A DNA stretch of 64,000 bases from Aristaeella lactis (GTDB lineage: Bacteria; Bacillota; Clostridia; Christensenellales; Aristaeellaceae). Location of the stretch: positions 1,550,001 through 1,614,000 of the forward strand of contig NZ_CP069421.1 of the NCBI RefSeq assembly GCF_018118585.1, written 5' to 3'. Positions 26,601 to 57,423 of this stretch are shown here, in pieces (positions within the stretch are counted from its first letter, which is position 1; each line of letters begins with the position of its first letter). Position numbers and translations under genes: made by a program. Below the pieces are notes generated by a model. That model ran no database searches, was not told where the DNA came from, and saw only the letters and a list, made by a program, of their open reading frames with translations.

Positions 26601-26635
26601 ATTCTGCATTCTGAATTCTGAATTCTGCATTGCAG
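26601..26635. repeat. Heptanucleotide array, unit ATTCTGA/ATTCTGC
   Basis: Five units: ATTCTGC, ATTCTGA, ATTCTGA, ATTCTGC, ATTGCAG. It follows the stop-codon hairpin of the sensory hydrogenase gene. Confidence 0.85.
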
Positions 26636-26640
26636 ATGTT

Positions 26641-26689
26641 GATCTGGCAAAACCCCGCGCGATTATTCGCGCGTAGTTTTCGCCAGATC
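26641..26689 (-). repeat. Hairpin spanning the stop codon of the sensory hydrogenase gene
   Basis: GATCTGGC, AAAAC and CGCGCGA on one side pair with TCGCGCG, GTTTT and GCCAGATC on the other, with one bulged base and a two-base mismatch. The TAA stop (26663-26665) is in the four-base loop. There is no T-run, so it is not a normal terminator. Confidence 0.85.
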
Positions 26690-27958
26690 GACCATCTGCT
26701 GCGCCATGACCCTCAGTTGTTCCTTCATCATATGAATGCAGTCCATCTTCGTTGCGAATCCCTGCACCACGTCTTCCGCGAAAGTCCTGCACGTCGGGCT
26801 CCCGCAGCTGCCGCAGTCAAAGCCAGGCAGTTCCTTGTAGATCTTGTCGATCTTCTCCATCTTCCGCATGGCTTCCATCAGATCATCGTCCAGCTTCATG
26901 GCGGAATTGGGCAGGATGCGCATGTCGTCATACAGGGAATACTTCGTCATCATGCCGTTATCCACATTCAGTTCCGGATTCTGATCCCTGCTGGCAAGTC
27001 GCCGTACATTGGACCGGGCCACATAGTTGTTTTCAAAGTTCAGCGGTCCGCCGACACAGCCTCCGGTGCAGGCCGCGCCTTCAAAGAACTCCAGGTTCTT
27101 CAGCCTGTTGTCCTCAATTTCCTCCAGCACATGGATACAGTTTTCGATTCCGTCCACAGACATGGAGTTTTCCGGACTCACAGCATTACACTCGCCGCCG
27201 CTCCTGGCCCAGCCAACTCCCAGGTCGGAGGCAGTTTCCAGGCTGATATCAACCGGTGCGTTCCGGATCTGGCTGGATAGCAGGCCGTAGATTTCAAGCA
27301 CAGAGATTGCGCCGTCCACAGAGCTCTTTGCGTGGCCGATAGGCCGGCGGATCGCCGTTACCTTGGCGGGACAGGGAGTGATAAAGAAGCAGCCGATCTC
27401 ATTCTCATTCACGCCATGGGAACGGGCATACTCACGCTTTGCGATCATGGCTGCCACTTCCATCGGCTGACGCACATCCACAATATGGTCCAGCAGGTCC
27501 GGAAAGCGGACCTGAATCAGGCGTACAATGGCAGGGCATGCCGAAGAGATCACCGGCCTGGGCAGGTCGGGATTCTTCAGCCTTTCCCTGATCGCGCGCG
27601 ATACCACATCCGCCCCGCGTGCCACTTCAAACGCGTCATCAAACCCCATCTGCTTCAGCCCGTTCAGCACCTGGCTGATGCTCTTCAGGTTCTGGAACTG
27701 GCCGTACAGGCTCGGTGCCGGCAGAGCAATCTTATACTTAAAGCCGCTGATGGAAGACAGCGGATCCGTTACCGCCACCTTTGCATGATAGCCGCAAACC
27801 CTGATACACTCTCCGCAGTCAATGCAGCGCTCGTCAATGATATGTGCCCGGCCGCCCCGGACACGGATCGCTTCCGTCGGGCAGCGCTTCAGGCAGTTGG
27901 TGCATCCCCTGCACTTGTCGCCTTCCAGTCTCACCGAATGAAACCGCTTCTGTTCCAT
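26663..27958 (-). CDS. Putative sensory [FeFe]-hydrogenase-like protein
   Basis: A 431-residue protein with two N-terminal 4Fe-4S clusters (CRGCTNCLKRCPTEAI near residue 17, CIDCGECIRVCGY near residue 45). A divergent H-cluster domain follows: SSACPAIVRLI replaces TSCCPG, then TPCPAKVTAI and GAACTGGCVGGPLNFEN. A C-terminal FeS domain (GFDCGSCGSPTCRTFAEDVV) takes the place of the usual small-subunit tail. Such enzymes (group B/C types) are thought to be redox or H2 sensors rather than bulk H2 producers. The ATG at 27958 has GGAG 8 bases upstream. It is surrounded by an ATPase-fold protein and DRTGG proteins. Confidence 0.85.
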   Translation of the reverse strand: MEQKRFHSVRLEGDKCRGCTNCLKRCPTEAIRVRGGRAHIIDERCIDCGECIRVCGYHAKVAVTDPLSSISGFKYKIALPAPSLYGQFQNLKSISQVLNGLKQMGFDDAFEVARGADVVSRAIRERLKNPDLPRPVISSACPAIVRLIQVRFPDLLDHIVDVRQPMEVAAMIAKREYARSHGVNENEIGCFFITPCPAKVTAIRRPIGHAKSSVDGAISVLEIYGLLSSQIRNAPVDISLETASDLGVGWARSGGECNAVSPENSMSVDGIENCIHVLEEIEDNRLKNLEFFEGAACTGGCVGGPLNFENNYVARSNVRRLASRDQNPELNVDNGMMTKYSLYDDMRILPNSAMKLDDDLMEAMRKMEKIDKIYKELPGFDCGSCGSPTCRTFAEDVVQGFATKMDCIHMMKEQLRVMAQQMVDLAKTTRE

Positions 27959-27976
27959 AGCCAATCTCCATCATTC

Positions 27977-28004
27977 ATTGTGCATTATGCATTGTGCATT
28001 AAGT
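27977..28004. repeat. Heptanucleotide array, unit ATTGTGC
   Basis: ATTGTGC, ATTATGC, ATTGTGC, then ATTAAGT, directly next to the stop-codon hairpin of the gene at 28019-28447. Confidence 0.8.
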
Positions 28005-28040
28005 CATTTTCACTGGCATCATAATGCCAATGAAAATGAC
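28003..28040 (-). repeat. Hairpin spanning the stop codon of the ATPase-fold gene
   Basis: Seventeen-base arms (28003-28019 and 28024-28040) with one mismatch and a four-base loop. The TGA stop (28019-28021) lies at the loop. No T-run follows. Confidence 0.9.
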
Positions 28041-28447
28041 ATCGTGATCGTCGTTCCCACACCCATTTCGCTCTGTATGTCAAACTCCGTTGCGTTCCGT
28101 TTCATGTTCGGAAGGCCCATGCCGGCGCCGAAGCCCAGTGTACGTGCCTCCGCACTGGCCGTGGAAAACCCTTCCTTCATGGCCATTTCAATATCAGGGA
28201 TTCCCGGTCCCACATCCTTGGAGATCAGCGTAACCTTCTCCGGGTCCACCAGCAGGGTCAGTGTGCCGCCCAGTGAATGGATCACCAGGTTCAGCTCCAC
28301 CTCGTAGCAGGCGACAGAAACATGCCGCAGCACTTCCGCGCTGACACCCAGCTGCTTCAGCGTTCTTTTAATGGTTGTGGAAGCTTCTCCGGCCGTTGTA
28401 TATGCCCCGGCTTCCACGGGAAAGCTTTTCTCAAGGATGTATGCCAC
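28019..28447 (-). CDS. RsbW-like ATPase domain protein
   Basis: A 142-residue GHKL ATPase-fold protein resembling anti-sigma factor kinases. The N box region is HVSVACYEVELNLVIHS near residue 45, and the G boxes are SKDVGPGIPDIEMAM near residue 75 and LGFGAGMGLPNMKRNA near residue 105. It starts with GTG behind AAAGGAGAG, four bases after the preceding gene. It may phosphorylate or sequester a partner in response to the neighbouring sensory hydrogenase; this is inferred only from gene order. Its last codons form half of a long hairpin. Confidence 0.82.
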   Translation of the reverse strand: MAYILEKSFPVEAGAYTTAGEASTTIKRTLKQLGVSAEVLRHVSVACYEVELNLVIHSLGGTLTLLVDPEKVTLISKDVGPGIPDIEMAMKEGFSTASAEARTLGFGAGMGLPNMKRNATEFDIQSEMGVGTTITMSFSLAL

Positions 28448-28450
28448 CGC

Positions 28451-28825
28451 TTACTCTCCTTTCGTTACGCCCGACTTCCTCTTCGTGCCCGGCAGTCCAT
28501 GGATATACAGTTCCCCGCATGCCGTGTAAGTGGTCAGCGGGCTGGAGATCAGTGTGATACCGATTTCCTCTGCCATTTCCATCATTTCCTCACTGGGCAG
28601 TTTCCCCCGCGAGAAAACAATGCAGGTAATATCCAGCATCTCCGATGTGCGGAGCACATGCGGATTGATCAGTCCTGTGATCAGCACTGTCTTTTCTTTC
28701 ACAAAAGCCAGCACGTCACTCATCAGGTCCGATCCGCAGGCCGTATCCACCCGTTCATCCAGCCTGTCTCCACCAACCAGCACCTTGCCGTCCACAATCT
28801 CCATGACTTCCCGTATAGTCATCAT
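28451..28825 (-). CDS. DRTGG domain protein
   Basis: A 124-residue protein: MMTIREVMEIVDGKVLVGGD, then TACGSDLMSDVLAFVKEKTV and a final TLISSPLTTYTACGELYIHG. The core fits the DRTGG domain found next to CBS domains and in hydrogenase operons. GGGGAG precedes the ATG. A paralogue is at 25800-26153, so the accessory cluster carries two. The specific role is unknown. Confidence 0.75.
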   Translation of the reverse strand: MMTIREVMEIVDGKVLVGGDRLDERVDTACGSDLMSDVLAFVKEKTVLITGLINPHVLRTSEMLDITCIVFSRGKLPSEEMMEMAEEIGITLISSPLTTYTACGELYIHGLPGTKRKSGVTKGE

Positions 28826-28879
28826 TTTCTGTCTCCCCTTTATCTTGTCTCAGGGTTCCTGGGGTTCAAAGTATATAAC

Positions 28880-28907
28880 ATTCTGAATTCTTAATTCTGA
28901 ATTCTGA
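28880..28907. repeat. Heptanucleotide array, unit ATTCTGA
   Basis: ATTCTGA, ATTCTTA, ATTCTGA, ATTCTGA, ending six bases from the stop of the DUF6062 gene. No stop-spanning hairpin is present here. Confidence 0.85.
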
Positions 28908-28912
28908 ATTAT

Positions 28913-29692
28913 TTAAGCGTCTGGTGTTGGCTCTTTTCCCACGCACCATCCGCGCACCTTGTTTACGGTACGTTCCACAGCGTCCTTGCTGTTCTTCCAG
29001 CTTTCATTCTCATAGCGGTAGTCAAACTTCTTGATAAACCAGGAAATATCTTCCTGGATCCTGTCCATGTTTTCCTTTTCCATCCGGGTCAGCGTTGTCA
29101 CAAAGCTGCCCAGATCCCTGGCATTCAGTTTCTGGGTGGCAACCTCCAGCAGCTGGCCCAGGTGCGGCAGGCACAGCCCCTTGCTCTTTTCAAACCGGCT
29201 GCGAAAATCCCCGTCGTTCTGATAAAGATGGAAGAAGGTATGCAGGTACCGGTTCATGTTTTCCCTGATCGTGTCGCACATCAGGCAGCTGTCCGCCATT
29301 TCGTTCACGGCCTGCGCCTGTTTCAGGATCTCATCCGTCGCCGCCTTTGTTTTTCCGCTCAGCTTGTCGCCGATCCCGGCGTTCTTCAGCAGTTCGGCGT
29401 TTTTATTCAGCTTGTCCGAGATCTTTGCCAGCTTTTCCCGGATCTCAATCGTATGGCTTTCCAGCATCAGGGCATGCCCCAGGCGGTTGCTCATGGAAAA
29501 CAGCATTGCGTGATGCTTCCGGCAGAATCCCCGGTCATTCACCTTCACGCGTACATCCGGTTCCATTACGGAAGCGCCGAGATACCGTTCTGCCTCTCCC
29601 AGTTCCGTTTTTCTTTCCAGAGCGCACAGCAGGCACTCTCCGTCCAGTTTCATCGCATCCCATACGGGAATCGTGTCAATATGATACCTCAA
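28913..29692 (-). CDS. DUF6062 family protein
   Basis: A 259-residue soluble protein with paired cysteine sites that look metal-binding: GECLLCALERKTE near residue 18, GFCRKHHAM near residue 56, DSCLMCDTI near residue 133 and GLCLPHLGQLL near residue 172. The rest is helical. This matches the uncharacterised DUF6062 family. The start is a TTG at 29692, behind GGAG with 7-base spacing. It is the first gene of the accessory cluster read toward the hydrogenase operon; function is unknown. Confidence 0.75.
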   Translation of the reverse strand: MRYHIDTIPVWDAMKLDGECLLCALERKTELGEAERYLGASVMEPDVRVKVNDRGFCRKHHAMLFSMSNRLGHALMLESHTIEIREKLAKISDKLNKNAELLKNAGIGDKLSGKTKAATDEILKQAQAVNEMADSCLMCDTIRENMNRYLHTFFHLYQNDGDFRSRFEKSKGLCLPHLGQLLEVATQKLNARDLGSFVTTLTRMEKENMDRIQEDISWFIKKFDYRYENESWKNSKDAVERTVNKVRGWCVGKEPTPDA

Positions 29693-29742
29693 TCAATAAC
29701 TCCAATCTTTCCTGACCCCATAATATCAGGCGGAAACATTTA

Positions 29743-29770
29743 ATTCTTCATTCTTCATTCTTAATTCTTA
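29743..29770. repeat. Heptanucleotide array, units ATTCTTC/ATTCTTA
   Basis: Four exact units, ATTCTTC twice and ATTCTTA twice, followed by ATTGCCT and then the stop codon of the deaminase gene. Confidence 0.85.
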
Positions 29771-29776
29771 ATTGCC

Positions 29777-30232
29777 TTACAGTTCTTCTTCGAACCTTTC
29801 CAGCTGAACGCCTGCTTCCGCAAACAGTTCCAGCGTGAAGGGATCCGGATAGCCTTCCTTGTAGATCACCCTCCGGATACCGGAGTTGATGATCATCTTG
29901 CAGCACATGGAGCAGGGCTGGTGGGTGCAGTAGAGCGTTGCCCCGTCAATGGAGACGCCCAGTTTCGCGGCCTGTACAATGGCGTTCTGCTCCGCGTGCA
30001 CCGCGTAGCAGGTTTCCATCCGCGTACCGCTGGGAATACCAAGCTTATCCCGCATGCATTCGCCCTTGTCCCGGCAGGTTTTAATGCCGGCCGGTGCGCC
30101 GTTATAGCCCGTGGTCATGATCCGCTTGTCCTTCACGATCACGCAGCCGATGCTGCGCCCCGCACGGTAACAGCTGGACCAGTCTGCGATTGTAAAGGCC
30201 ATCTGCATAAACCGCTTGTCCCATTTATCCAT
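29777..30232 (-). CDS. dCMP/cytidine deaminase family protein (ComEB type)
   Basis: A 151-residue zinc deaminase. The zinc and catalytic residues are CYAVHAEQNAIVQAA near residue 76 (His and the proton-shuttle Glu) and THQPCSMCCKMIINSG near residue 105. MQMAFTIADWSSCYRAGRSI and TGYNGAPAGIKTCRD fit dCMP deaminases. It would supply dUMP for thymidylate synthesis. A strong promoter and its own ribosome binding site suggest it starts a transcript. Confidence 0.88.
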   Translation of the reverse strand: MDKWDKRFMQMAFTIADWSSCYRAGRSIGCVIVKDKRIMTTGYNGAPAGIKTCRDKGECMRDKLGIPSGTRMETCYAVHAEQNAIVQAAKLGVSIDGATLYCTHQPCSMCCKMIINSGIRRVIYKEGYPDPFTLELFAEAGVQLERFEEEL

Positions 30233-30282
30233 ATATTTCCCCGCCTTTGTAATTGTTATGATTGGCTCGTTTTATCCTTTTT

Positions 30283-30311
30283 ATTATAGAAGATTGAAAA
30301 CATTTGGTCAA
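30283..30311 (-). promoter_or_regulatory. Promoter of the deaminase gene
   Basis: On the minus strand TTGACC and a perfect TATAAT are 17 bases apart, about 50 bases before the ATG. Confidence 0.8.
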
Positions 30312-30312
30312 C

Positions 30313-30338
30313 AAAAAACAGGCCCGTCAATGGGCCTG
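30313..30338 (-). terminator. Terminator of the EFR1-TetR operon
   Basis: CAGGCCC and GGGCCTG around a short loop, followed on the minus strand by six T, about 35 bases after the TetR stop. Confidence 0.85.
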
Positions 30339-30371
30339 CTTCTCAATTGCTCAGGTCGGGAGGTAAACAGT

Positions 30372-30953
30372 TTACACTTCAATAATCCTGTTCCAGAACC
30401 GGATCAAGTTGTCATTCAGCTTTTCTGACCGGAACCATTCGGCCCCGGTATTGTCTTCATGGTGAATAACTGCCTCAGATCCTTTGATCAGGATTCGGGC
30501 TAGCGTCTTATCATCAACATCAAGACAACTCTTTATCTTTTCATTTTCTTTCAGTCGACTCAATGCCCGGGTCAGAGGCTCTTCCATTGCCTGCAATGTC
30601 ATTTCATGCAAGGCAAGCTGGATAGTCCAATGAAGCTTATCACCCTGTAACTCCGTGTAGTATTTCTCACCGGAAGTTTTGAGTTCTTCCAGTACCTTTT
30701 CTGCGATCTGCTTCGCATCCAGGGCTTCATCATCCAGAATGCTCCTGACTCTCTGCGCATACTGCTGTAGAAAAGCTTCAACCACAGCTTCAAACAGATC
30801 TTCTTTTGATGGAAAGAAATGATAAAAGCTTCCCGTAACAATATGAGCTTCTTCCAGGATCATCTTCACAGAAGTCTTTTCAAAGCCGTTCTCAAAAAAC
30901 GCCTTTGTCGCAGCCTGGAGAATGGTTTCCCTTGTTTCGCCTCTTTTTGCCAT
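30372..30953 (-). CDS. TetR/AcrR family transcriptional regulator (autoregulated pair with EFR1 protein)
   Basis: A 193-residue regulator. The helix-turn-helix is complete: RETILQAATKAFFENGFEKT, then SVKMILEEAHIVTGSFYHFF about residues 26-45. A helical ligand domain follows. The ATG at 30953 shares one base with the stop of the upstream gene (TAATG), so it is translationally coupled. Two matching palindromes at the operon promoter are probable binding sites, giving autorepression. Ligand unknown. Confidence 0.9.
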   Translation of the reverse strand: MAKRGETRETILQAATKAFFENGFEKTSVKMILEEAHIVTGSFYHFFPSKEDLFEAVVEAFLQQYAQRVRSILDDEALDAKQIAEKVLEELKTSGEKYYTELQGDKLHWTIQLALHEMTLQAMEEPLTRALSRLKENEKIKSCLDVDDKTLARILIKGSEAVIHHEDNTGAEWFRSEKLNDNLIRFWNRIIEV

Positions 30954-31798
30954 TATTCTCTTTCCTTTGTCAGGTCCTTCGCTGTTATATACGGATTCAT
31001 ATACAGTTTGCGTTTTTCCGGAAGCCCCATCCACTTCACCAGGAACGTTTTAGTATTTGATGCGTCCAGGAGTTTCCTGTCTCCTTGAGATATATTATAC
31101 CCAATTGCACGCCTGGGGCAACTCACCACGCATGCCATGCAGTTGGAACAATGATGCTGAAAAACAGGTTTTCCTTCTTCAAGGATAATGTTTTTGCAAG
31201 GGCACACTTTCCTGCACAGGCCACACGAAATGCATCCATCACTGATCGTAAAAGGATAGTCCGCATACTTCTGAAGTTCCACATACGGCGTCATAACCCT
31301 TTCTCTTTTTCTCTTTATGAACCTGCTTGCCCGGGGATACGCTCTGTCTTTCCTCAGGACTATATCCCCGGCAATCTTCTTCAGCTTTCTTTCCGTTGCC
31401 GGAACCCTGATCTTTGCTGATGGAAACGGCGGATAGACAATCGCGTAATTAGCCACACTGTGCACAAGATTGCCGTAATTGATCTGAACATCCTTCTTTT
31501 CGAGAATCTCCGCAAGTTTCTCACAGGCTATACCGCATACAAAACTCGGCATTGCTATCACAAACACATAAGCATTTGGATTGATCTTCAATTTCTCAAT
31601 AAACGCTGCTGCAGGTGCGGGCATTGTCCAGTGATATACAGGGTATATAAATCCGACAATATCACAGTCCGTAGCCGGATATTCCTCTGGATTCACTTTC
31701 ATTGAGATGATCTCTGTATCCTGCAGCTGTTGTGCGATCACGCGTGCTGCCCGCATGCTGTTTCCTGTTCCGGTGAAGTAATAGATTCTTCCTTTCAT
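30953..31798 (-). CDS. EFR1-family flavodoxin/ferredoxin fusion protein
   Basis: A 281-residue protein. The N-terminus is a flavodoxin domain with the FMN phosphate loop IYYFTGTGNSMRAARVIA, then DIVGFIYPVYHWTMP and FVIAMPSFVCG. The C-terminus carries two 4Fe-4S clusters (CISCGLCRKVCPCKNI near residue 193, CSNCMACVVSCPRRAI near residue 220). This is the EFR1 arrangement; it should move electrons between ferredoxin and flavin partners. The ATG has GGAGGAG upstream. It is first in an operon with its TetR regulator. Confidence 0.88.
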   Translation of the reverse strand: MKGRIYYFTGTGNSMRAARVIAQQLQDTEIISMKVNPEEYPATDCDIVGFIYPVYHWTMPAPAAAFIEKLKINPNAYVFVIAMPSFVCGIACEKLAEILEKKDVQINYGNLVHSVANYAIVYPPFPSAKIRVPATERKLKKIAGDIVLRKDRAYPRASRFIKRKRERVMTPYVELQKYADYPFTISDGCISCGLCRKVCPCKNIILEEGKPVFQHHCSNCMACVVSCPRRAIGYNISQGDRKLLDASNTKTFLVKWMGLPEKRKLYMNPYITAKDLTKERE

Positions 31799-31813
31799 CG
31801 TGAGCTCCTCCAT

Positions 31814-31886: not shown

Positions 31887-31905
31887 TTTTTTAGAACAGC
31901 TATAG

Positions 31906-31930
31906 AAAAAACGGATCCGTAAAGGATCCG
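31906..31930 (-). terminator. Second terminator after the tRNA-Met region
   Basis: CGGATCC and GGATCCG with a five-base loop, followed on the minus strand by six T. Confidence 0.8.
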
Positions 31931-31940
31931 CCTTCCTATT

Positions 31941-32133: not shown

Positions 32134-32135
32134 GC

Positions 32136-32162: not shown

Positions 32163-32170
32163 CTGTTGTG

Positions 32171-37252: not shown

Positions 37253-37282
37253 TTTTCCGTCCCCCGTCCGGTAAACACTCTC

Positions 37283-37310
37283 ATTCTGCATTCTGCATTC
37301 TGCATTGGGA
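37283..37310. repeat. Heptanucleotide array, unit ATTCTGC
   Basis: Three exact ATTCTGC units and ATTGGGA, touching the stop-codon hairpin of the permease gene. Confidence 0.85.
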
Positions 37311-37341
37311 TAAAGATCTTTCTTCAAAAGATCTTTATCCC
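37307..37341 (-). repeat. Hairpin spanning the stop codon of the second sugar permease
   Basis: Perfect 15-base arms (37307-37321 and 37327-37341) with a five-base loop. The TAA stop (37335-37337) is in the arm nearer the gene. No T-run follows. Confidence 0.92.
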
Positions 37342-38243: not shown

Positions 38244-38278
38244 ATTGTTCATTGTTCATTATTCATTGTTCATTGCAT
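38244..38278. repeat. Heptanucleotide array, unit ATTGTTC
   Basis: ATTGTTC, ATTGTTC, ATTATTC, ATTGTTC, ATTGCAT, running directly into the stop-codon hairpin. Confidence 0.85.
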
Positions 38279-38302
38279 GTGATTCAGTCCCTGAATCACA
38301 TG
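38276..38302 (-). repeat. Hairpin spanning the stop codon of the first sugar permease
   Basis: Perfect 12-base arms CATGTGATTCAG and CTGAATCACATG with a three-base loop. The TGA stop is at 38296-38298 in one arm. Confidence 0.9.
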
Positions 38303-39192
38303 TACTGAACCTTGTTCTTACTAAACCTCAGGTTGATATACGTGATCGTGAACACAATGGCAAACAGGAGCAGTGCCGCCGCTGCCGCGTAGCCGGGATA
38401 CCCGCCTTTGTCGCTGTACAGCATGTCATACACATAGCCGACGATGGTATTCATTCCGGCTTCGTTCAGGTTCACGCCGAACAGTGCCACTTCATCGCTG
38501 TAGGCCTTGAAGGCCCCGATAAAGCCGGTGATGATCAGGTAGAACACTGTGGGGCTGATCATCGGAAGGGTGATCTTCCGGAAGATGCGTCCGCTGCTTG
38601 CGCCGTCCACCTTAGCCGCCTTGTAGTAATCCTGGTTCACGCTGGCCAGGGCGCTGGTCAGGATCAGGATCTTGAAGGGCATCACGATCCAGACCGTATA
38701 CAGGCAGGTGACCATCATCTTTGCCCAGTAGGGGCCGTTGATGAAATCCACCATCTCATAGCCCATCGCCTGGATCAGCGCATTGATCAGTCCGTCCGTA
38801 TATTCCGTCCTGGCAAACAGGATCATGAAAACAAGACCCACCGCCAGCGTGTTGGTCACATACGGCAGGAAATAGATTGTCTGGAAGGCTTTCTTCAGCG
38901 CCTTGATGGAGCTCAGCCCCAGGGCGATCAGCAGGGAGATGCCCGTGCTGACCGGCACCGTGATCACCACCAGGATCAGTGTGTTTTTCAATGCCTGAAT
39001 AAAGAAAGGATCGCTCAGCACATGGCCGAAATTACCCAGTCCGACTCCTGTATAGGTCTGGGATATGGAATGGTAGTTCTCCTCCAGGGAGTAAAAACAT
39101 ACGTCCACCAGCGGATAGACCATAAACACACCCAGGAACAGGATCGCCGGAAGCAGGTACAGCCAGGCTTTCAGGTTGTTTTTCTGTTTCAT
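38296..39192 (-). CDS. Carbohydrate ABC transporter permease (MalF/UgpA type)
   Basis: A 298-residue permease with six membrane segments (AWLYLLPAILFLGVFMVYPL at the start). The EAA loop DYYKAAKVDGASSGRIFRKI is near residue 192, followed by TLPMISPTVFYLI. It pairs with the MalG-type permease. The ATG overlaps the ATPase stop (ATGA), so the importer genes are translationally coupled. Confidence 0.92.
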   Translation of the reverse strand: MKQKNNLKAWLYLLPAILFLGVFMVYPLVDVCFYSLEENYHSISQTYTGVGLGNFGHVLSDPFFIQALKNTLILVVITVPVSTGISLLIALGLSSIKALKKAFQTIYFLPYVTNTLAVGLVFMILFARTEYTDGLINALIQAMGYEMVDFINGPYWAKMMVTCLYTVWIVMPFKILILTSALASVNQDYYKAAKVDGASSGRIFRKITLPMISPTVFYLIITGFIGAFKAYSDEVALFGVNLNEAGMNTIVGYVYDMLYSDKGGYPGYAAAAALLLFAIVFTITYINLRFSKNKVQYM

Positions 39193-40398: not shown

Positions 40399-41763
40399 AT
40401 GCAGCAGGCACACCCGCGCCGCGGATATGGAATGACCCTTTCCGCCTGTCTCTGGCTGGGCCTTTTCCCGCTGCTTCAGGGCGGAACCTATTACAGTATC
40501 ACCCATGACAAGCTGCGCATTATGCAGGACCTGTCAGCGGTTACACTCCTCTGTCTTCTCTTTGACCTGGTTTTCTTCCTGATCCATCGGAAAAAGAACC
40601 CGTCTCCCTCGTCCGGGAAGCGGCAAATCCTGGTTCCTTTGCTGATCGCGTCAGCTCTCATGGGCCTGACTGCCGTATCCTGTTTCACCAGTATAGGATT
40701 CACTTCCATTACCTGGTGGATCGGAGAAGACGCGCGGTATGAAGGGCTGGCCACGCAACTCTGCTATTTCGGTCTCTTCGTTTGTTTTCTCTTTTCCCGG
40801 GTGTACCGGAGACCCGTAGTGCTTTCCGCCTCCGCCGGCGTCATCGCTTATCTTGTTGTTGTGTTGCTCCAGCGGGCAGGCGGGAATCCTTTCGGACTCT
40901 ATCCTCCTGATAAGAGCTATGCACTGGTCCCGGAGTTCCAGGGAACCATCGGAAATATCGATATGGTGACAGGTTATCTCCTGCTCATGGCTGGTTTCCT
41001 CCTTTATTCTTTCCTGGATGATCTCTTCACGCTCCGGTCTTCCAAAGCGTCCTCCGGCAGGTCAGCCCGGCTGAAGCCAAAGGATGAAAGGCATCCCTGC
41101 CTTTCCCTGATCAGCCTCGCCGCGTTCCTGGCTGCCGTTTACCTGATCCTGACCATGGGGGTCCAGTTCGGCGTTATTTCCCTGTCTGTGCTGCTGCTTT
41201 TCACCCTGCTGCGGTTCCTGCCCCGAAAAGCGCGTCGTCCCCTGCTGATCATCCTGATCGTCGTTGCGCTGCTGGTTGTCTGGTTCTGGCCGGGGCACAG
41301 CGGCGGCCTGTGGGAACTGCACGAAATCTTCCACGGCCGTGCCCGCCTGTCCTTTGGCAGCAACCGTGTTGCCGTCTGGTATTACAGCATACTCATGTCG
41401 AAGGAGCATCTTCTCCTGGGCAACGGTTCCGGGACATTCAAGGAGTGTTTCAATACCTTCCTTCCGGAACATGATTATGTCATTCCAACAGAGCAGGATG
41501 GCCTCGCCTTACCGGCATATTTTGACAACCCGCACAGCGAATACATTGCCCAGCTGGCAGACCACGGCCTCCTGGCCATGCTGCTGTTCATTCTCCTGAT
41601 GCTTGTTGCCGTATTCCGCCGTCGGGAAGGCTGGTTCCCCTGCCTTTCCCCTTATTCCGCCGCGGTGCTCTGCTATGCGGTCCAGGCCATCTTCTCTTTC
41701 TCCGTCTGCCTCGTCGCGCCTATGTTCTGGGCTCTTATTGCTCTGTCTTTTACAGAGCAATAA
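40399..41763 (+). CDS. O-antigen ligase/polymerase (Wzy_C) family membrane protein
   Basis: A 454-residue protein with about ten membrane helices and the ligase-domain signature: SKEHLLLGNGSGTFKECF near residue 334 and DNPHSEYIAQLADHGLLAML near residue 375, in which the conserved histidine sits. Such proteins join or polymerise lipid-linked glycans on the outer membrane face. AAGGAGG precedes the ATG. It stands alone on the plus strand, away from the EPS operon. Its last codons lie in a 14-base perfect hairpin. Confidence 0.85.
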   Translation: MQQAHPRRGYGMTLSACLWLGLFPLLQGGTYYSITHDKLRIMQDLSAVTLLCLLFDLVFFLIHRKKNPSPSSGKRQILVPLLIASALMGLTAVSCFTSIGFTSITWWIGEDARYEGLATQLCYFGLFVCFLFSRVYRRPVVLSASAGVIAYLVVVLLQRAGGNPFGLYPPDKSYALVPEFQGTIGNIDMVTGYLLLMAGFLLYSFLDDLFTLRSSKASSGRSARLKPKDERHPCLSLISLAAFLAAVYLILTMGVQFGVISLSVLLLFTLLRFLPRKARRPLLIILIVVALLVVWFWPGHSGGLWELHEIFHGRARLSFGSNRVAVWYYSILMSKEHLLLGNGSGTFKECFNTFLPEHDYVIPTEQDGLALPAYFDNPHSEYIAQLADHGLLAMLLFILLMLVAVFRRREGWFPCLSPYSAAVLCYAVQAIFSFSVCLVAPMFWALIALSFTEQ

Positions 41764-41765
41764 GA
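41733..41765 (+). repeat. Hairpin spanning the stop codon of the Wzy-like gene
   Basis: Perfect 14-base arms TCTTATTGCTCTGT and ACAGAGCAATAAGA with a five-base loop. The TAA stop is at 41761-41763. It is the plus-strand example of the pattern. Confidence 0.92.
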
Positions 41766-41766
41766 C

Positions 41767-41815
41767 ACTCTTCACTCTTAACTGATCACTGATCACTCTT
41801 CACTCTTAACTGACA
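41767..41815. repeat. Heptanucleotide array, units ACTCTTC/ACTCTTA/ACTGATC
   Basis: Seven exact seven-base units, all starting ACT: ACTCTTC, ACTCTTA, ACTGATC, ACTGATC, ACTCTTC, ACTCTTA, ACTGACA. It begins one base after the hairpin. Confidence 0.9.
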
Positions 41816-49824: not shown

Positions 49825-49856
49825 CTCCGCCATTATTCATTTGACGGTTTTTCAGT

Positions 49857-49870
49857 ATTCATTATTCATT
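49857..49870. repeat. Short heptanucleotide array, unit ATTCATT
   Basis: Two ATTCATT units next to the stop-codon hairpin, with ATTATTC and ATTTGAC units at 49832-49845. Confidence 0.75.
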
Positions 49871-49871
49871 A

Positions 49872-49905
49872 CTTGATTGATTTCTCCTCCGGGAAATCAA
49901 TCAAG
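49872..49905 (-). repeat. Hairpin spanning the stop codon of the exporter gene
   Basis: Perfect 13-base arms CTTGATTGATTTC and GAAATCAATCAAG with an eight-base loop; the TGA stop is at 49897-49899. No T-run. Confidence 0.92.
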
Positions 49906-51855: not shown

Positions 51856-53589
51856 TTACGCCCCCTTCTTTCCGAGCTGGCTCTCAGCGATTTCCCTGTA
51901 CTCCGTATTGGAGGCCAGCAATTCGTCATGGGTGCCCACGCCCGTTATCTTTCCTTCATTCATCACGATGATCTGATCAGCGTCCATCACGGAAGCGATC
52001 CGCTGGGCGATGATGATCTTCGTGCTGCCCGCCAGTTCATGGCTGAAGGCATGGCGGATCTGTGCCTCCGTCGCCGTATCCACGGCAGATGTGGAGTCAT
52101 CCAGGATCAGGATCTTCGGTTTTTTCAGCAATGCCCGGGCAATACACAGGCGTTGCTTCTGTCCACCGGACAGGTTGTTTCCGCCCTTGTCCAGTTCCGT
52201 ATCATAGCCATCCGCAAAAGTGGAAACAAACTTGTCTGCCTGGGAAGAGGACGCAGCGGAGATCATCTCGTCATCCGTTGCGTTCTCATCACCCCAGCGC
52301 AGGTTCTCCGCGATCGTACCGGAGAACAGTACGTTCTTCTGGAGCACCATGCCCACGCCTTCACGCAGGTTGTACAGGCTGTAGTCTTTGACGTTCACCC
52401 CGTCCACCAGGATTTCTCCCTCGTCCGGGTCATACAGTCTCGGGATCATACTCACCAGCGTGCTCTTTCCGCAGCCGGTGGAACCGATAATGCCCACCAC
52501 GCTGCCGGGTTCAATCGTCAGGCTGATGTTATCCAGCACGCTGTCTTCGCTGTGCTTGTAATAGCGGAAGGAAACGTTGCGGAATTCCACCCGTCCTTCC
52601 TTCACGGTCAGTTCCTTCTGTGCAGCAGCTTCATCGTTCAGATCCGGTTCTTCTTCCAGCACTTCACGGATACGCTTTGCGCTCGCCATTGCGCGGGAGG
52701 ACATCATGAACAGGAAGGTAACCATAATCAGGGAAGACAGGATCTGGATCACGTAATTAACGAAAGCGGACAGGTCGCCTACAGCCATCTCGCCGCCCAG
52801 GACCAGTGAGTGGCCCTGCCAGGCTACCGCGATCACGGTAATATACATGATCAGGGTCGTAACCGGCTGCATCTGGATCACAATGCGCATTGCCCGCAGC
52901 TGGGCGTTCTTCAGATCTCCGTTGGCTTTGTGGAACTTCACGTTCTCATCCTGTTCCCGCACAAAGGATTTCACCACACGCACATTGGTGATGTTCTCCT
53001 GCACAGTGGAATTCAGGCCGTCCACCTTGGCCTGCACGTTTTTGAACCGGGGAAAAGCGGTCAGGATATTGCCGCCCACAAACACAAGCAGTACCGGAAT
53101 ACTGATCAGGAAGACCGTGGCAAGGCTCGGCCGCAGCCGGATCGCCATGATCAGGCCGCCGATCATCATACCCGGTGCCCGCAGGGCCATCCGCATCACC
53201 ATGGCCACAAAGTTCTGCATCTGGGTCACGTCATTGGTCACCCGCGTAACCAGCGATCCCGTGGAAAACCGGTCAATATTCCCGAAAGAAAAGCTTTGGA
53301 TCTTCCGGTACAGGTCATTACGGATATCCCCCGCAAAAGCAATGCTGGCTTTTGAACTGAAATAGCATCCGCCGATACCGCCGGCCATCATAAAAATAGC
53401 GATCAGGATCATCAGTCCTGCCGTACCGATGCTGGATCCCACCGTCAGCGTGCCCATGTTCCCGGCATTGATCACGCCCGCCAGCAGCATCGGCAGGATC
53501 ACCTCACCGATGACCTCCACGATCATGCACAGCGGACCGAGAATGAACCAAGCCTTGTAAGGCTTGATATATTTCATCCAGTGTTTCAA
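51856..53589 (-). CDS. ABC exporter half-transporter (multidrug type), first of pair
   Basis: A 577-residue exporter half. Walker A is IIGSTGCGKSTLVSMI near residue 370, signature LSGGQKQRLCIARAL and Walker B ILILDDSTSAVD near residue 490. The Asp in place of the catalytic Glu after Walker B marks this as the degenerate-site half of a heterodimeric exporter. The start is TTG at 53589, with GAGGAG 8 bases upstream; the ATG four codons later has no spacing fit. Confidence 0.9.
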   Translation of the reverse strand: MKHWMKYIKPYKAWFILGPLCMIVEVIGEVILPMLLAGVINAGNMGTLTVGSSIGTAGLMILIAIFMMAGGIGGCYFSSKASIAFAGDIRNDLYRKIQSFSFGNIDRFSTGSLVTRVTNDVTQMQNFVAMVMRMALRAPGMMIGGLIMAIRLRPSLATVFLISIPVLLVFVGGNILTAFPRFKNVQAKVDGLNSTVQENITNVRVVKSFVREQDENVKFHKANGDLKNAQLRAMRIVIQMQPVTTLIMYITVIAVAWQGHSLVLGGEMAVGDLSAFVNYVIQILSSLIMVTFLFMMSSRAMASAKRIREVLEEEPDLNDEAAAQKELTVKEGRVEFRNVSFRYYKHSEDSVLDNISLTIEPGSVVGIIGSTGCGKSTLVSMIPRLYDPDEGEILVDGVNVKDYSLYNLREGVGMVLQKNVLFSGTIAENLRWGDENATDDEMISAASSSQADKFVSTFADGYDTELDKGGNNLSGGQKQRLCIARALLKKPKILILDDSTSAVDTATEAQIRHAFSHELAGSTKIIIAQRIASVMDADQIIVMNEGKITGVGTHDELLASNTEYREIAESQLGKKGA

Positions 53590-53625
53590 AAGGACTTCTC
53601 CTCTCCTTATATGTACGTACGTTTC

Positions 53626-53654
53626 AATTTATCCCCATATGAACATATTGTCAA
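53626..53654 (-). promoter_or_regulatory. Promoter of the second exporter pair
   Basis: On the minus strand a perfect TTGACA and TAAATT are 17 bases apart, about 40 bases before the TTG start. Confidence 0.7.
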
Positions 53655-53732
53655 CCCAGAACCATACCTTTGGAAATCACTTGAGCAGGCGCACCGCCCA
53701 GCCCCTTTTCCATTCGTCCATCTCTTCCAATC

Positions 53733-53766
53733 AAAAAACTGCTTCCAGTCTCCCGGAAGCAGTTTT
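53733..53766. terminator. Terminator-like hairpin with no gene ending in it
   Basis: AAAACTGCTTCC and GGAAGCAGTTTT with an eight-base loop, T-rich on both sides. The surrounding bases match those at 49780-49835. No neighbouring gene ends here on either strand. Confidence 0.75.
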
Positions 53767-53773
53767 CTCCGCC

Positions 53774-53794
53774 ATTATGAATTATGAATTATGA
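53774..53794. repeat. Heptanucleotide array, unit ATTATGA
   Basis: Three exact ATTATGA units directly after the orphan hairpin, before the promoter of the lipid kinase gene. Confidence 0.85.
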
Positions 53795-53796
53795 AT

Positions 53797-53824
53797 TTGT
53801 TTTTCCCCTCCAGTCTGGTATAAT
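53797..53824 (+). promoter_or_regulatory. Promoter of the lipid kinase gene
   Basis: A TATAAT with an extended TGG before it, and TTGTTT 16 bases upstream. Transcription would start near 53831. Confidence 0.65.
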
Positions 53825-53860
53825 TTCCCTGTCACCGTTTATCATTATGAAACACGCTTT

Positions 53861-53881
53861 ATGAATTATGAATTCTGAATT
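53861..53881. repeat. Heptanucleotide array that supplies a start codon
   Basis: ATGAATT, ATGAATT, CTGAATT. The second unit provides the ATG of the lipid kinase, and the array codes for its residues MNSEL. Confidence 0.85.
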
Positions 53882-54764
53882 GAAATCTCTCCATCTCATC
53901 ATTAATCCCAACGCCGGTACCCGCCAGGGCCGCCGTTTCCTGCCTGAGATGATTTCCATCTTCAACCGGGCAGGGTATCTTTGTTCTGTCTATGTGACGG
54001 AAAAGCGCGGCGACGCGGTTGATTTTGCCCGAGCCCACGCGGGTGAAGCGGATCTGGTCGTTGCCTGCGGCGGCGATGGCACCCTCAACGAAGTGATCAC
54101 CGGGCTGCAGCTGGGCAGGCATAAACCTTCTCTGGGCTACATTCCCTGCGGCAGCACCAATGATTTTGCCAGCGGGCTGGAACTGCCCCTTGCGCCGCTG
54201 CTTGCCTGCGACTCCATTGTTCTCGGCAACCCGCGGCCTCTGGATGTGGGGCTTTTCGGTTCTGACCGGTATTTCAGCTATACCGCTTCCTTCGGAGCCT
54301 TTACCAGTGTCTCCTGGTCCACATCCCAGAATGTAAAGAACGTACTGGGGCATGCGGCGTACATTCTCGAGGGTATTCGTTCCCTTGCGGATATTCATCC
54401 GATTCATATGAAGGTCACCGCTGACGGGCACGAATATGAGGATGACTATATCTTCGGCGCTGTATGCAATTCCACATCCCTGGGCGGTGTCCTGAAGCTG
54501 GATGACAGCGAAGTCCACATGAGCGACGGCCTTTTTGAGGCACTTCTTATTCCCTTTCCGCCGGATCTTCTCGTCCTGAACCGGATCCTCACAGCCCTGC
54601 GGACGCATTGTTATGATGATCCTTCCCTCTATTTTCTCCGGGCTTCCTCCTTTGTCTTTGAAGGTGCCCCGGAGATTACATGGACCCTGGACGGTGAAGC
54701 CGCCGAAGGCACCTCACGCGTTGAGATCAAAAACATCCATAACGCGATCAGCCTGATTTACTGA
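53868..54764 (+). CDS. Diacylglycerol/lipid kinase family protein
   Basis: A 298-residue DAGK-type kinase. Family motifs are LHLIINPNAGTRQGRRFL (residues 8-25), VVACGGDGTLNEVITGL near residue 64 and GYIPCGSTNDFASGLEL near residue 88. It phosphorylates a membrane lipid such as diacylglycerol or makes a phosphatidyl intermediate. The ATG lies in a heptanucleotide array and has no visible Shine-Dalgarno sequence. The short leader also contains a five-codon open frame (ATG at 53847). One of two protein genes on the plus strand. Confidence 0.88.
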   Translation: MNSELKSLHLIINPNAGTRQGRRFLPEMISIFNRAGYLCSVYVTEKRGDAVDFARAHAGEADLVVACGGDGTLNEVITGLQLGRHKPSLGYIPCGSTNDFASGLELPLAPLLACDSIVLGNPRPLDVGLFGSDRYFSYTASFGAFTSVSWSTSQNVKNVLGHAAYILEGIRSLADIHPIHMKVTADGHEYEDDYIFGAVCNSTSLGGVLKLDDSEVHMSDGLFEALLIPFPPDLLVLNRILTALRTHCYDDPSLYFLRASSFVFEGAPEITWTLDGEAAEGTSRVEIKNIHNAISLIY

Positions 54765-54780
54765 ACTTATTACCATAGAG

Positions 54781-54809
54781 AAAAGCCAGCGGAGTATCCG
54801 CTGGCTTTT
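54781..54809 (+). terminator. Bidirectional terminator between lipid kinase and iorB
   Basis: Twelve-base arms AAAAGCCAGCGG and CCGCTGGCTTTT with a five-base loop; T-rich in both directions, between convergent genes. Confidence 0.88.
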
Positions 54810-54816
54810 AGTATTA

Positions 54817-54837
54817 ATTGTTCATTGTTCATTGTTG
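54817..54837. repeat. Heptanucleotide array, unit ATTGTTC
   Basis: ATTGTTC, ATTGTTC, ATTGTTG, followed directly by the bulged-hairpin element; two more degenerate units lie at 54927-54940. Confidence 0.82.
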
Positions 54838-54838
54838 A

Positions 54839-54930
54839 GCAGTTGTCCAAATCTTTGATTTGGGTAACAGCTGCCATATTACAGCCGTCAAAGTTCCCAT
54901 TGGAACTTTGGTCACGGCGATCATGTAATT
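54839..54930. repeat. Element with two bulged hairpins
   Basis: Hairpin 1 (54839-54874): outer GCAGTTGT/ACAGCTGC with one G-T pair, inner CCAAATC/GATTTGG, bulge GTA. Hairpin 2 (54884-54918): outer GCCGT/ACGGC, inner CAAAGTTCC/GGAACTTTG, bulge GTC. Outer ATTACA/TGTAAT arms surround hairpin 2. It matches the family at 43456-43633 in shape and in its conserved GT-C and G-GTAAC joints, but not in stem sequence. Confidence 0.82.
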
Positions 54931-54935
54931 GTTCA

Positions 54936-55508
54936 TTATCCGTTGAACCCGCGGTCAAACGCGGCTTTGTTCATTTCCAGGAACTGCGGCTTAACTACCT
55001 TCTCCAGGGCAGCCAGCCACTTCTCCTTCGGAATCTCCGTGCACTTGGCAAAGTGTCCCATCAATACAATATTGACCGCCTTGGAGCTTCCCGCTTCCAT
55101 GGCAGGCGTCAGCGCGTCAAAGTCATCAATGTCAAAGCCTTTGGCCTTCAGGTCTTCCAGCACACCCGTCGGATATTCCGCCGCGCCGGTAATCACCGGC
55201 ATCGGATCGATCTCCTGGGTATTGACGATGATCTTTCCGCCCTTGCGCAGGCAGCCGGCATACCGGGCTGCCTCCAGCTTTTCAAAGCTGATGATATAGT
55301 CGCATTCTCCCTCAGTCACAATCGGGCTGTACACCTTCTCGCCGAAACGCACATAGGTCACGACGCTGCCGCCGCGCTGGCTCATGCCGTGCACTTCGCT
55401 GACTTTCACATCATAGCCTTCATCCGTCAGCAGGGTCCCCAGCAGTCTGGAGGCCAGCAGGCTTCCCTGTCCGCCGACGCCGACGATCATTACACTCGTT
55501 GTTTTCAT
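54936..55508 (-). CDS. iorB: Indolepyruvate:ferredoxin oxidoreductase, beta subunit
   Basis: A 190-residue gamma/beta-type 2-oxoacid oxidoreductase subunit: MKTTSVMIVGVGGQGSLLAS, then VSEVHGMSQRGGSVVTYVRF near residue 38. It pairs with IorA to oxidise aryl pyruvates to aryl-acetyl-CoA with ferredoxin as acceptor. The ATG at 55508 overlaps the iorA stop (ATGA). Confidence 0.93.
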   Translation of the reverse strand: MKTTSVMIVGVGGQGSLLASRLLGTLLTDEGYDVKVSEVHGMSQRGGSVVTYVRFGEKVYSPIVTEGECDYIISFEKLEAARYAGCLRKGGKIIVNTQEIDPMPVITGAAEYPTGVLEDLKAKGFDIDDFDALTPAMEAGSSKAVNIVLMGHFAKCTEIPKEKWLAALEKVVKPQFLEMNKAAFDRGFNG

Positions 55509-57262
55509 TTGTCCATACCCCCGATCGCGCCGAAGGCACACAGCTGTTCGCACACGCCGCAGCCTACACAGAGTGTTTTGTCAATCCTGGCCTTGCCTTC
55601 CTTGAAGCTGATGGACGGGCAGCCCATCTTCATGCACTTCTTACAGCCCCGGCACTTATCCGTATCCACCTGAAGAGGTGTTTTGGGCTTCACGTACTTC
55701 AGCAGTACGCAGGGCCGGCGGGAAATGATCACAGACGGCTCTTCCACAGCCAGCTCTTCCAGTACCGCTTCCTCACAGGCCTTCAGGTCATAGGGATCCA
55801 CCACCCGCACCCGGTTGATGCCCAGCGCCTTGCACAGGGCTTCCAGGTTCACCTTCGCAGCGGGATCTCCCTTGATGTTGTAACCCGTGGTGGGGTTCTG
55901 CTGGTGTCCGGTCATGCCGGTAATGGAGTTGTCCAGGATAATGACAGTGGAGTTCGTCGCGTTATAGGCAATGTTCACCAGGCCCGTCATACCGCTGTGC
56001 ATAAAGGTGCTGTCACCGATCACGGCCACCGTCTTCTTCTCGGTTTCCTTGCCCCGGGCCGCGTTGAAGCCATGGATACCGGAAATGCTGGCGCCCATGC
56101 ACAGGGTGGAATCCAGTGCGTTCAGCGGCGCCACCGCGCCCAGCGTATAGCAGCCGATGTCGCCCAGAACGGTGATATGGTTCTTCACCAGCGTGTAATA
56201 CATACCCCTGTGCGGACAGCCCGAGCACATCATCGGCGGACGGCCGGGAACAGCAGGCGCTTCACCCTGCGCTTCCGGAACGTCTTTCACCGCATAGCCT
56301 TCCTTCAGGAAAGCTTCCCGGATCGTCTTCTGGCTGAACTCGCCGATGGCGGAGAACAGGCTCTTGCCGGTCACTTCGATTCCCAGGGCTTTCACATGGT
56401 TCTCGATCACCGGGTCCAGTTCTTCAATCACATACAGCTTCTTCACATTCGCGGCAAAGTCACGGATCAGTTTTTCAGGCAGCGGATTGGGCATGCCGAT
56501 CTTCAGCACGCTGACGCTGTCACCGAACACTTCCCGGACATACAGGTAGCTGCAGCCGCTGGTGATGATGCCGATCTCCCGGTCATCAGCCATTTCCACA
56601 CGGTTATACATGCATTCTTCTGCCAGGGCCCGCAGTTTTTCTGTCCGTTCTTCCACAACGGGATGGCGCTGTTTCGCGTATCCCGGCATCATAATGTACT
56701 TGGAAGGCTGCTTCACATATTCCTTCAGCGGAGCTTCCTCCCGCTCCCCGATATCCACAACACACTGGCTGTGTGCGATCCGCGTGCACATCCGCAGCAG
56801 CACCGGTGTGTCATACTTTTCGCTCAGTTCAAAAGCGGATTTGGCAAAGACATAAGCTTCAGCGGAATCGGAAGGCTCCAGCATCGGCACCTTCGCCGCA
56901 ATGGCATAGTGCCGGGAATCCTGTTCGTTCTGGCTGGAATGCATGGCCGGGTCATCCGCCACGCAGACCACCATACCGCCGGTAACGCCGGTATAGCTCA
57001 GCGTGAACAACGGGTCTGCCGCCACGTTCAGTCCCACGTGCTTCATCGCGCAGACGCTGCGCATACCTGCCAGGCTGGCTCCGAAAGCCGTTTCCATGGC
57101 CACTTTTTCATTCGGTGCCCACTCGCTGTGAATGTCATCATGCTTGGCCAGGAACTCCGTAATTTCTGTGGAAGGCGTTCCCGGATAGCTGCTCACCAGC
57201 CCGATTCCGCCGTTGTACAGGCCCCAGGCCACCGCTTCATTACCAATCAGTAACTTTTTCAT
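55505..57262 (-). CDS. iorA: Indolepyruvate:ferredoxin oxidoreductase, alpha subunit
   Basis: A 585-residue subunit. The N-terminal pyrimidine-binding domain has GIGLVSSYPGTPSTEITEFL near residue 19. The thiamine diphosphate domain has GDIGCYTLGAVAPLN near residue 366 and AVIGDSTFMHSGMTGLVNIA near residue 408. Two 4Fe-4S clusters close the protein (CRGCKKCMKMGCPSISF, CVGCGVCEQLCAFGAI). It ferments aromatic amino acids, yielding reduced ferredoxin for the hydrogenase. GAGGAG precedes the ATG. Confidence 0.94.
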   Translation of the reverse strand: MKKLLIGNEAVAWGLYNGGIGLVSSYPGTPSTEITEFLAKHDDIHSEWAPNEKVAMETAFGASLAGMRSVCAMKHVGLNVAADPLFTLSYTGVTGGMVVCVADDPAMHSSQNEQDSRHYAIAAKVPMLEPSDSAEAYVFAKSAFELSEKYDTPVLLRMCTRIAHSQCVVDIGEREEAPLKEYVKQPSKYIMMPGYAKQRHPVVEERTEKLRALAEECMYNRVEMADDREIGIITSGCSYLYVREVFGDSVSVLKIGMPNPLPEKLIRDFAANVKKLYVIEELDPVIENHVKALGIEVTGKSLFSAIGEFSQKTIREAFLKEGYAVKDVPEAQGEAPAVPGRPPMMCSGCPHRGMYYTLVKNHITVLGDIGCYTLGAVAPLNALDSTLCMGASISGIHGFNAARGKETEKKTVAVIGDSTFMHSGMTGLVNIAYNATNSTVIILDNSITGMTGHQQNPTTGYNIKGDPAAKVNLEALCKALGINRVRVVDPYDLKACEEAVLEELAVEEPSVIISRRPCVLLKYVKPKTPLQVDTDKCRGCKKCMKMGCPSISFKEGKARIDKTLCVGCGVCEQLCAFGAIGGMDK

Positions 57263-57304
57263 GACTCCTCAACCTTTATTCTTAAATATTCCGCTCGTTC
57301 CTTT

Positions 57305-57350
57305 TGTCATCCCAACCGAAGTGGAGGGATCTCCCCCGCCGCAGCGGATC
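57305..57350. repeat. REP-like dispersed motif
   Basis: TTGTCATCCCAACCGAAG followed by GTGGAGGGATCTCC and a small GC-rich stretch. It resembles the widespread TGTCATCC-type dispersed bacterial repeat; a similar start is at 41825-41860. Confidence 0.6.
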
Positions 57351-57385
57351 ATTGTTCATTGTTAATTGTTCATTGTTCATTGTTG
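57351..57385. repeat. Heptanucleotide array, unit ATTGTTC
   Basis: Five exact-period units: ATTGTTC, ATTGTTA, ATTGTTC, ATTGTTC, ATTGTTG, overlapping the edge of the stop-codon hairpin. Confidence 0.88.
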
Positions 57386-57423
57386 ATTCTCGGAATCGCT
57401 TAACTGCGATTCTGAGAATCAAC
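57382..57423 (-). repeat. Hairpin spanning the stop codon of the acyl-CoA synthetase gene
   Basis: Eighteen-base arms (57382-57399 and 57406-57423) with one mismatch and a six-base loop. The TAA stop (57400-57402) is in the loop. Confidence 0.92.

Follow-up and report, generated by a model that had tools for sequence, protein, structure and literature searches.

Why does a gene end within a hairpin that runs directly into a heptanucleotide array, and why do several genes do so in one stretch of chromosome? The question is raised by a 64-kb stretch of the Aristaeella lactis genome (contig NZ_CP069421.1, positions 1,550,001 to 1,614,000), here called the window, in which the stop codons of seven genes lie within a strong hairpin or at its edge, each hairpin being followed by an array of period seven. 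A preliminary description of the window read the downstream arm of each hairpin as an inverted copy of the gene end, and put forward one process that snaps back on the gene 3′ end and adds heptamers. The reading that I favour, with moderate confidence, has two layers: the array comes first, and template switching during replication then makes a copy of the gene end where gene and array meet. The seven sites are as follows (window coordinates, strand; the evidence for each hairpin is in brackets).

26633..26699, minus strand: bulged hairpin around the stop codon 26663-26665, end of the Fe-hydrogenase gene (stem score, folding)
26600..26631, minus strand: heptamer array AATGCAG/AATTCAG, with a core of 31 nt (four units plus AAT)
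28003..28040, minus strand: 17-bp hairpin around the stop codon 28019-28021, end of the HATPase gene (folding)
27976..28001, minus strand: heptamer array AATGCAC/AATGCAT
37307..37341, minus strand: perfect 15-bp hairpin including the stop codon 37335-37337, end of a permease gene (stem score, folding)
37282..37306, minus strand: heptamer array AATGCAG
38268..38310, minus strand: hairpin including the stop codon 38296-38298, end of a permease gene (folding)
38244..38274, minus strand: heptamer array AATGAAC/AATGAAT, 31 nt, whose first unit overlaps the outer end of the stem
41733..41765, plus strand: 14-bp hairpin with the stop codon 41761-41763 within its 3′ arm, end of the Wzy_C gene (stem score, folding)
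41766..41811, plus strand: heptamer array ACTCTTC/AACTGAT, which reads AGTGAAG/AGTTAAG on the opposite strand, in the leading-strand direction
49872..49905, minus strand: 13-bp hairpin including the stop codon 49897-49899, end of the ABC exporter gene (folding)
49851..49871, minus strand: short heptamer array AATGAAT
57382..57423, minus strand: 18-bp hairpin with one mismatch around the stop codon 57400-57402, end of the AMP-binding gene (folding)
57351..57381, minus strand: heptamer array AATGAACAATGAACAATTAACAATGAACAAT, 31 nt

Stems were scored without gaps (match +1, mismatch −2, smallest permitted loop 3 nt), which gave 9 (bulged), 14, 15, 14, 14, 13 and 15 for the stops at 26663, 28019, 37335, 38296, 41761, 49897 and 57400, respectively; the stem at 26663 is longer than its score of 9 once the outer and inner stems are both counted. 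RNA folding z-scores at the seven sites ranged from −3.8 to −7.6, and none of 200 shuffled sequences per site was equally stable, so that the seven hairpins with their adjoining arrays are borne out. The preliminary description had placed every stop inside its hairpin: all seven are in it or at its edge, and at 41761 the loop is intragenic, with the stop in the 3′ arm. It had also called the genes unrelated, which agrees with their Pfam matches (Fe-hydrogenase, HATPase_c, two BPD_transp_1 permeases, Wzy_C, ABC exporter and AMP-binding) except that the two permeases belong to one Pfam family. Five further gene ends in the window, after the stops at 26218, 28913, 29777, 42142 and 59150, carry an array without a hairpin. 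A known RNA family was rejected as the identity of these structures, since an Rfam scan of the window brought four tRNAs, and nothing else, to gathering scores.

The frequency of such structures was assessed in an enlarged sample of the source genome (3.45 Mb in two contigs; G000 below, G-numbers denoting genomes and L-numbers sampled stretches, followed by a position). The sample consists of 40 stretches of 20 kb, 17 of them picked close to array hits and the other 23 not, plus the window, amounting to 864 kb and 714 gene ends; genes were called with a purpose-made codon-usage caller, and some gene ends, for example that of 14288-15358, are probably wrong. A stop-spanning hairpin of score at least 10 was found at 36 of the 714 ends. 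Shuffling the downstream 50 nt left 0/2142, swapping the downstream sequence among genes left 0/714, and redrawing synonymous codons left 27/2142, a nonzero value because some stems lie mostly outside codons. In the 23 stretches that were not picked near array hits, window excluded, such a hairpin is present at 14/381 gene ends. In a first sample of 464 kb, any hairpin of score at least 10 centred near the stop was counted, giving 40/378 gene ends versus 1/582 intragenic positions. Two of the 36 stems (L033:12734 and L034:5729) are built of array letters and are not copies of a gene end.

What follows these hairpins bears on the suggestion that they are stop-overlapping intrinsic terminators, or palindromes of the repetitive extragenic palindrome (REP)/RAYT type. 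The 36 hairpins are followed by an AATKMAN array (20), a hairpin-array linker (7), ACTCTTC (3), GGTAGGA (1), a T-run (2) or none of these (3); in all, 31 run into a heptamer array or a hairpin-array linker. The two that precede a T-run could be ordinary terminators, Y1_Tnp proteins are encoded in the genus, and REP-like palindromes lie beside a Y1_Tnp match in L034. The other 34 hairpins, however, have no T-run, which upholds the earlier view that these are not ordinary terminators, and their stems track the neighbouring gene, not a repeat family. Y1_Tnp occurs in 17 of 26 genus genomes (G000 included), array-rich and array-free alike, and was therefore rejected as a clade-specific cause. Both forms of this explanation are very unlikely.

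The origin of the two arms can be read from orthologous gene ends. Five genomes are array-rich: G000, G001, G007 and G022, each at least 95% complete, and G004, which is 70% complete in 210 contigs. At the stop 57400, G000, G015 and G020 encode an identical end, and G015 and G020 have no hairpin; the end encoded in G009 and G003 differs by one or two residues. Among the array-rich species, this site has a downstream arm that largely follows each species' own synonymous codons. At 37335, G000 on the one hand and G007 and G001 on the other carry two different hairpins with different arrays, G022 lacks an evident hairpin and carries a heptamer array of yet another kind, and in G016, G011 and G009 the gene runs directly into the next one, with no hairpin seen. 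At 38296, the hairpin is present only in G000 and in G004, where it is a perfect 20 bp, while G007, G022 and G001 have the array or its remnant alone. The Fe-hydrogenase gene end (26663) has variant hairpins in G007, G001 and G022 and none seen in G016, G011 and G009, and the inner stem at the ABC exporter gene end (49897) is variable in G001, G022 and G007.

The C-terminal peptide is thus the same with and without a hairpin at three sites: 57400 (G015, G020), 37335 (G016, G011) and 38296 (G016, G020). Because hairpin-free relatives encode the same gene end, the coding arm at these sites is old and the downstream arm is a new, inverted copy of it, as the preliminary description had surmised. 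More broadly, orthologous ends of the hairpin genes form a hairpin (score at least 8) in 23/37 cases in array-rich genomes versus 1/27 in the others. Since sister species carry different hairpins at one and the same gene end (37335, L037:6039 and L074:19254), the process recurs, with repeated independent origins.

The hairpins are not tied to stop codons as such. The inverted copy supplies the stop codon of the genes ending at L060:8350 and L031:8565, and the array supplies it in L061 at 14678, L065 at 16413 and L066 at 1833; in L061:14046-14678 and L066:1192-1833, the protein C-terminus is lengthened by the inverted copy plus the translated heptamer array. A queH-like gene bears on the order of events. 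Repeat material is found at one same codon of this gene in the five array-rich species: G022 and G001 have the array only, G004 and G007 have a hairpin whose stem holds an AATGC piece resembling an array unit and whose inverted copy contains the stop, and G000 has a longer hairpin. Of 14 other genomes with a match, one (G015) has a tail resembling an array; in nine the gene ends no more than about 10 residues from the codon and has no such tail, and the remaining four have tails that are longer and unrelated. The array alone in some species and the stem with an array-like unit in others suggest that the array came first and the snap-back second.

The arrays themselves obey two regularities, the first of which is replication polarity. 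Leading strands were assigned by GC skew, which puts the replication origin at about 2.6 Mb and the terminus at about 0.9 Mb, with switch points set by hand at 0.88 and 2.64 Mb. The array pattern, A[ACG]T[GT][AC]AN repeated (most commonly as four units plus AAT), lies on the leading strand in 113/129 arrays, or in 91/108 when each stretch's own GC skew is used; G022, G007 and G001 together give 48 leading versus 6. This is not a by-product of gene orientation, a possibility that was rejected because arrays between tandem lagging-strand genes are still in leading orientation in 15/15 cases (67/77 between leading-strand genes). Linkers of hairpin arrays show the same bias (leading versus other, 36 to 3 for GTGAAATAT and 17 to 2 for ATGAATTATT), and GGTAGGAGGTA shows none (GGTAGGA arrays, 4 versus 4). 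In the 464-kb sample, 49 of 53 period-7 runs lie mostly outside called genes. On their left, 77/129 arrays have a gene 3′ end no more than 60 nt away; on their right, 21/129 have a gene start at that distance or less. AATKMAN arrays are absent from L068, L029, L030 and L069 (0.70-0.92 Mb, near the inferred terminus); of the 37 remaining stretches, among which the window is counted, six likewise have none.

The second regularity is size. The 110 arrays of at least 17 nt comprise 18, 19, 68 and 5 with two, three, four and five units, respectively, and 68 of them measure exactly 31 nt. Identical 31-mers recur in 50 pairs; when unit order was shuffled 500 times, the mean was 30 pairs and the highest value 47. 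In G022, 27 arrays give unit counts of 8, 5, 13 and 1. Array length is therefore unlike that of a freely slipping repeat.

The array pattern gives 550 hits in G000 (7 with the reversed control) and 18-657 in seven congeners, none in the other 17 congeners searched, where other heptamer families were not searched, and a few in 2 of 16 genomes from other families of the order, so that 10 of 41 genomes match, G000 included. G012 has no hits to this pattern, yet arrays of another unit are visible there by eye. Stop-spanning hairpins occur at 36/714 gene ends in G000, 7/147 in G022, 4/37 in G007, 3/37 in G001 and 2/17 in G012; G009, G011, G017, G018, G020, G003, G015 and G016 together have 2/325, a group that is array-poor and not array-free because G015, G016 and G003 have some arrays. 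Farther afield, an identical 33-mer heptamer array is present in 19 stretches (L097-L115) from several phyla, its hosts being Bacteroidales, Prevotellaceae, Oscillospiraceae, other Clostridia, Prochloron, Roseofilum, Chloroflexi and Planctomycetaceae. In these lineages, a hairpin of score at least 8 abuts the array at 0 of 19 true left edges (0 of 20 motif places in an earlier count), and the hairpin was therefore rejected as a general companion of heptamer arrays. Several copies of the 33-mer stand directly past a possible stop codon.

Within G000, hairpin placement follows genes. A hairpin of score at least 12 abuts the array on 27/91 flanks that face a gene 3′ end (24/77 left, 3/14 right) versus 4/167 other flanks (4/52 left, 0/115 right). 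Hairpins thus follow gene 3′ ends on either flank, and a lagging-strand gene can therefore have its hairpin at the opposite end of the array. This placement speaks for a possible, if doubtful, alternative, in which selection builds and keeps an mRNA 3′ hairpin where an array has disturbed the 3′ region, the downstream arm evolving to pair; the structure would protect the transcript or mark a processing site. It is also favoured by the position of the next gene, which is co-directional at 24/36 hairpins and within 150 nt at 13 of these, and by covariation in hairpins shared by descent: in an nth-like gene whose hairpin and array are common to G000 and G004, coding-arm differences are matched downstream 2/2; in the queH-like gene, G004 versus G007, 1/1; and at L073:14227, G000 versus G007, two coding differences are matched downstream and one difference is confined to an arm. 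On the other hand, perfect stems of 17-21 bp would be hard to build stepwise, some hairpins encode part of the protein C-terminus, and only 3/36 have neither an array nor a linker nor a T-run after them. G-U wobbles at stem mismatches (9 sense versus 6 antisense) show no clear excess on the sense strand; clear RNA-strand selection, as read from wobble bias, was rejected, although these counts decide neither for nor against selection on the RNA.

The regularities of the arrays could instead point to a dedicated writer, enzyme or templating RNA, that folds back on a 3′ end and appends a constant heptamer tail, the product becoming fixed in the chromosome. The hairpin does abut the array directly, the 31-nt size is preferred and identical arrays recur, the arrays show replication polarity, and one exact 33-mer spans several phyla. 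A search for reverse transcriptases (RVT_1, PF00078, E ≤ 1e-6), however, returned no match in G000, G001, G007 and G022, though four in G004, and a reverse transcriptase encoded by the array-rich genomes (retron, diversity-generating retroelement or group II intron) was rejected on this basis. Furthermore, arrays are often hairpin-free, in the other lineages as well (0/19), and arrays and hairpins follow different polarities. For these last two reasons, the single process of the preliminary description is unsupported in so far as it also adds heptamers; its other half, repeated snap-back-like inverted copying, stands. I regard a dedicated writer as improbable. Similarly small odds attach to a replication-coupled writer other than a recognisable reverse transcriptase, which would install 31-nt modules at gene ends in the leading-strand direction and prime the snap-back in the same reaction; if it existed, the genome would be one that is re-edited at its gene ends.

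The geometry of the hairpins can be accommodated by template switching. Loops are of 3-4 nt in 33/50 hairpins and stems of 10-22 nt; 29/49 stems are perfect, with 25 mismatches in 751 pairs overall. The reverse-complement copy adjoins its source gene end and usually abuts the repeat block, AAT coming directly after 16/36 stems. I infer that a template-switch step follows the array and that selection filters its products. In the two-layer reading, the clade would spread short heptamer arrays between genes, in leading-strand orientation and mostly just past stop codons, where insertion would be tolerated. At the junction of gene 3′ end and array, replication would then switch template: the new strand would fold back on the gene end just copied, extend by about 10-22 nt to make the inverted copy, and return to the template near the start of the array, yielding in a single step the gene end, a small loop, the inverted copy and the array, in that order. 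Later switches between the arms, or selection for an mRNA hairpin, could maintain their similarity. Copies landing on gene starts or within genes would be lost, whereas those at gene 3′ ends would persist and in some cases contribute a new stop codon or a few new C-terminal residues. Part of the article by Monttinen and Loytynoja (2022, PMC8794818) describes how template switching can make perfect stems in one event and help to keep them.

Several observations weigh against this reading. A purely replicative mechanism is indifferent to genes, so that selection or transcription must be added to it; for hairpins to remain at gene 3′ ends, selection would have to act against those at gene starts, in favour of those at mRNA ends, or in both ways. 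RNA selection would also produce covariation in hairpins of common descent. One count speaks for the reading but calls for caution: where the coding arms of two hairpin-bearing orthologues differ, the downstream arm agrees with its own genome in 203/231 cases and with the other genome in 18. Selection could give the same result, and the figure is an upper view, pairs being counted in both directions and only for ends that still form a hairpin. Some shared hairpins also differ without compensating changes: in that at 57400, coding differences between G007 and G022 are matched downstream 0/2, and the G001 version is more decayed. An exact return at C|AAT is not general: 14/36 stems end in C followed by AAT, C is also a frequent last base of the array unit, and the end-in-C rule is weaker in relatives (7/19). 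Finally, alignment recovered no clean empty insertion site, only one 21-nt change in copy number.

Other repeats were seen alongside these structures. Tandem arrays of hairpins, with differing stems and short linkers of the GTGAAAT or TGAAT form (the GTGAAATAT linkers among those with leading polarity above), occur at the following places; their first hairpin is sometimes a gene-end snap-back.

L022:317-540, hairpin tandem array
L027:11935-12155, hairpin tandem array
L028:17110-17331, hairpin tandem array
L028:18655-18867, hairpin tandem array
L034:3004-3199, hairpin tandem array
L035:12510-12767, hairpin tandem array
L035:13306-13525, hairpin tandem array

In L034, at about 10076-11270, the Y1_Tnp match is flanked by repeated GGGAACGATAGGGACGGTCC palindromes and is likely a REP/RAYT set; the same palindromes also lie near some arrays. 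L077:1790-1990 and L073:15690-15816 are intergenic repeats of about 120-200 bp with at least several further copies in the relatives searched. Gene ends of G020, G015 and G012 carry another short palindromic insert, with a GCTTTCCGATCG core, where other species carry heptamer arrays.

How do these gene ends compare with known systems? Nematomorpha mitochondria reportedly contain coding palindromes with both arms within coding sequence; these resemble the present hairpins in being inverted repeats that overlap coding sequence, but in the latter a gene end pairs with an arm that is mostly non-coding. REP/REPIN palindromes with RAYT transposases likewise form many intergenic hairpins, and Y1_Tnp genes are present here too, but the stems follow each neighbouring gene and share no palindrome family. 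Heptamer arrays and template-switch hairpins are each already known. As far as titles and the beginnings of abstracts tell, with most subscription papers outside the coverage, no earlier description of stop-codon hairpins beside heptamer arrays was recognised. What is new is the replication polarity of the arrays, their 31-nt size, the hairpins at gene 3′ ends, and genes that end in the copy or the array.

The arrays come closest to the intergenic heptamer direct repeats, such as TAACTGA, treated by MacGregor (2015, PMC4679880). In the sections of that article that bear on them, these repeats are likewise of period 7, intergenic, patchy over distant phyla and of mixed units; in the Beggiatoa genome their usual place is immediately upstream of a start codon, whereas the present arrays are mostly past stops, prefer 31 nt, have a measured leading-strand polarity and are accompanied by a hairpin on the gene side. 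Section 10 of the same article asks whether the common orientation of a few Microcystis sets holds genome-wide, a question on which the leading-strand polarity reported here bears. The hairpins come closest to the products of template-switch or quasipalindrome mutagenesis as presented in part of PMC8794818, with which they share an adjacent reverse-complement copy, a proposed origin in one event and arms that are kept alike, and from which they differ in recurring genome-wide at gene ends, at junctions with heptamer arrays and in one clade. Inferences of template switching usually rest on scattered events. The present genome has dozens of hairpins with known source arm and direction, and sister species have independent versions at the same gene end, so that one could follow directly how RNA stems and new protein C-termini arise and are maintained.

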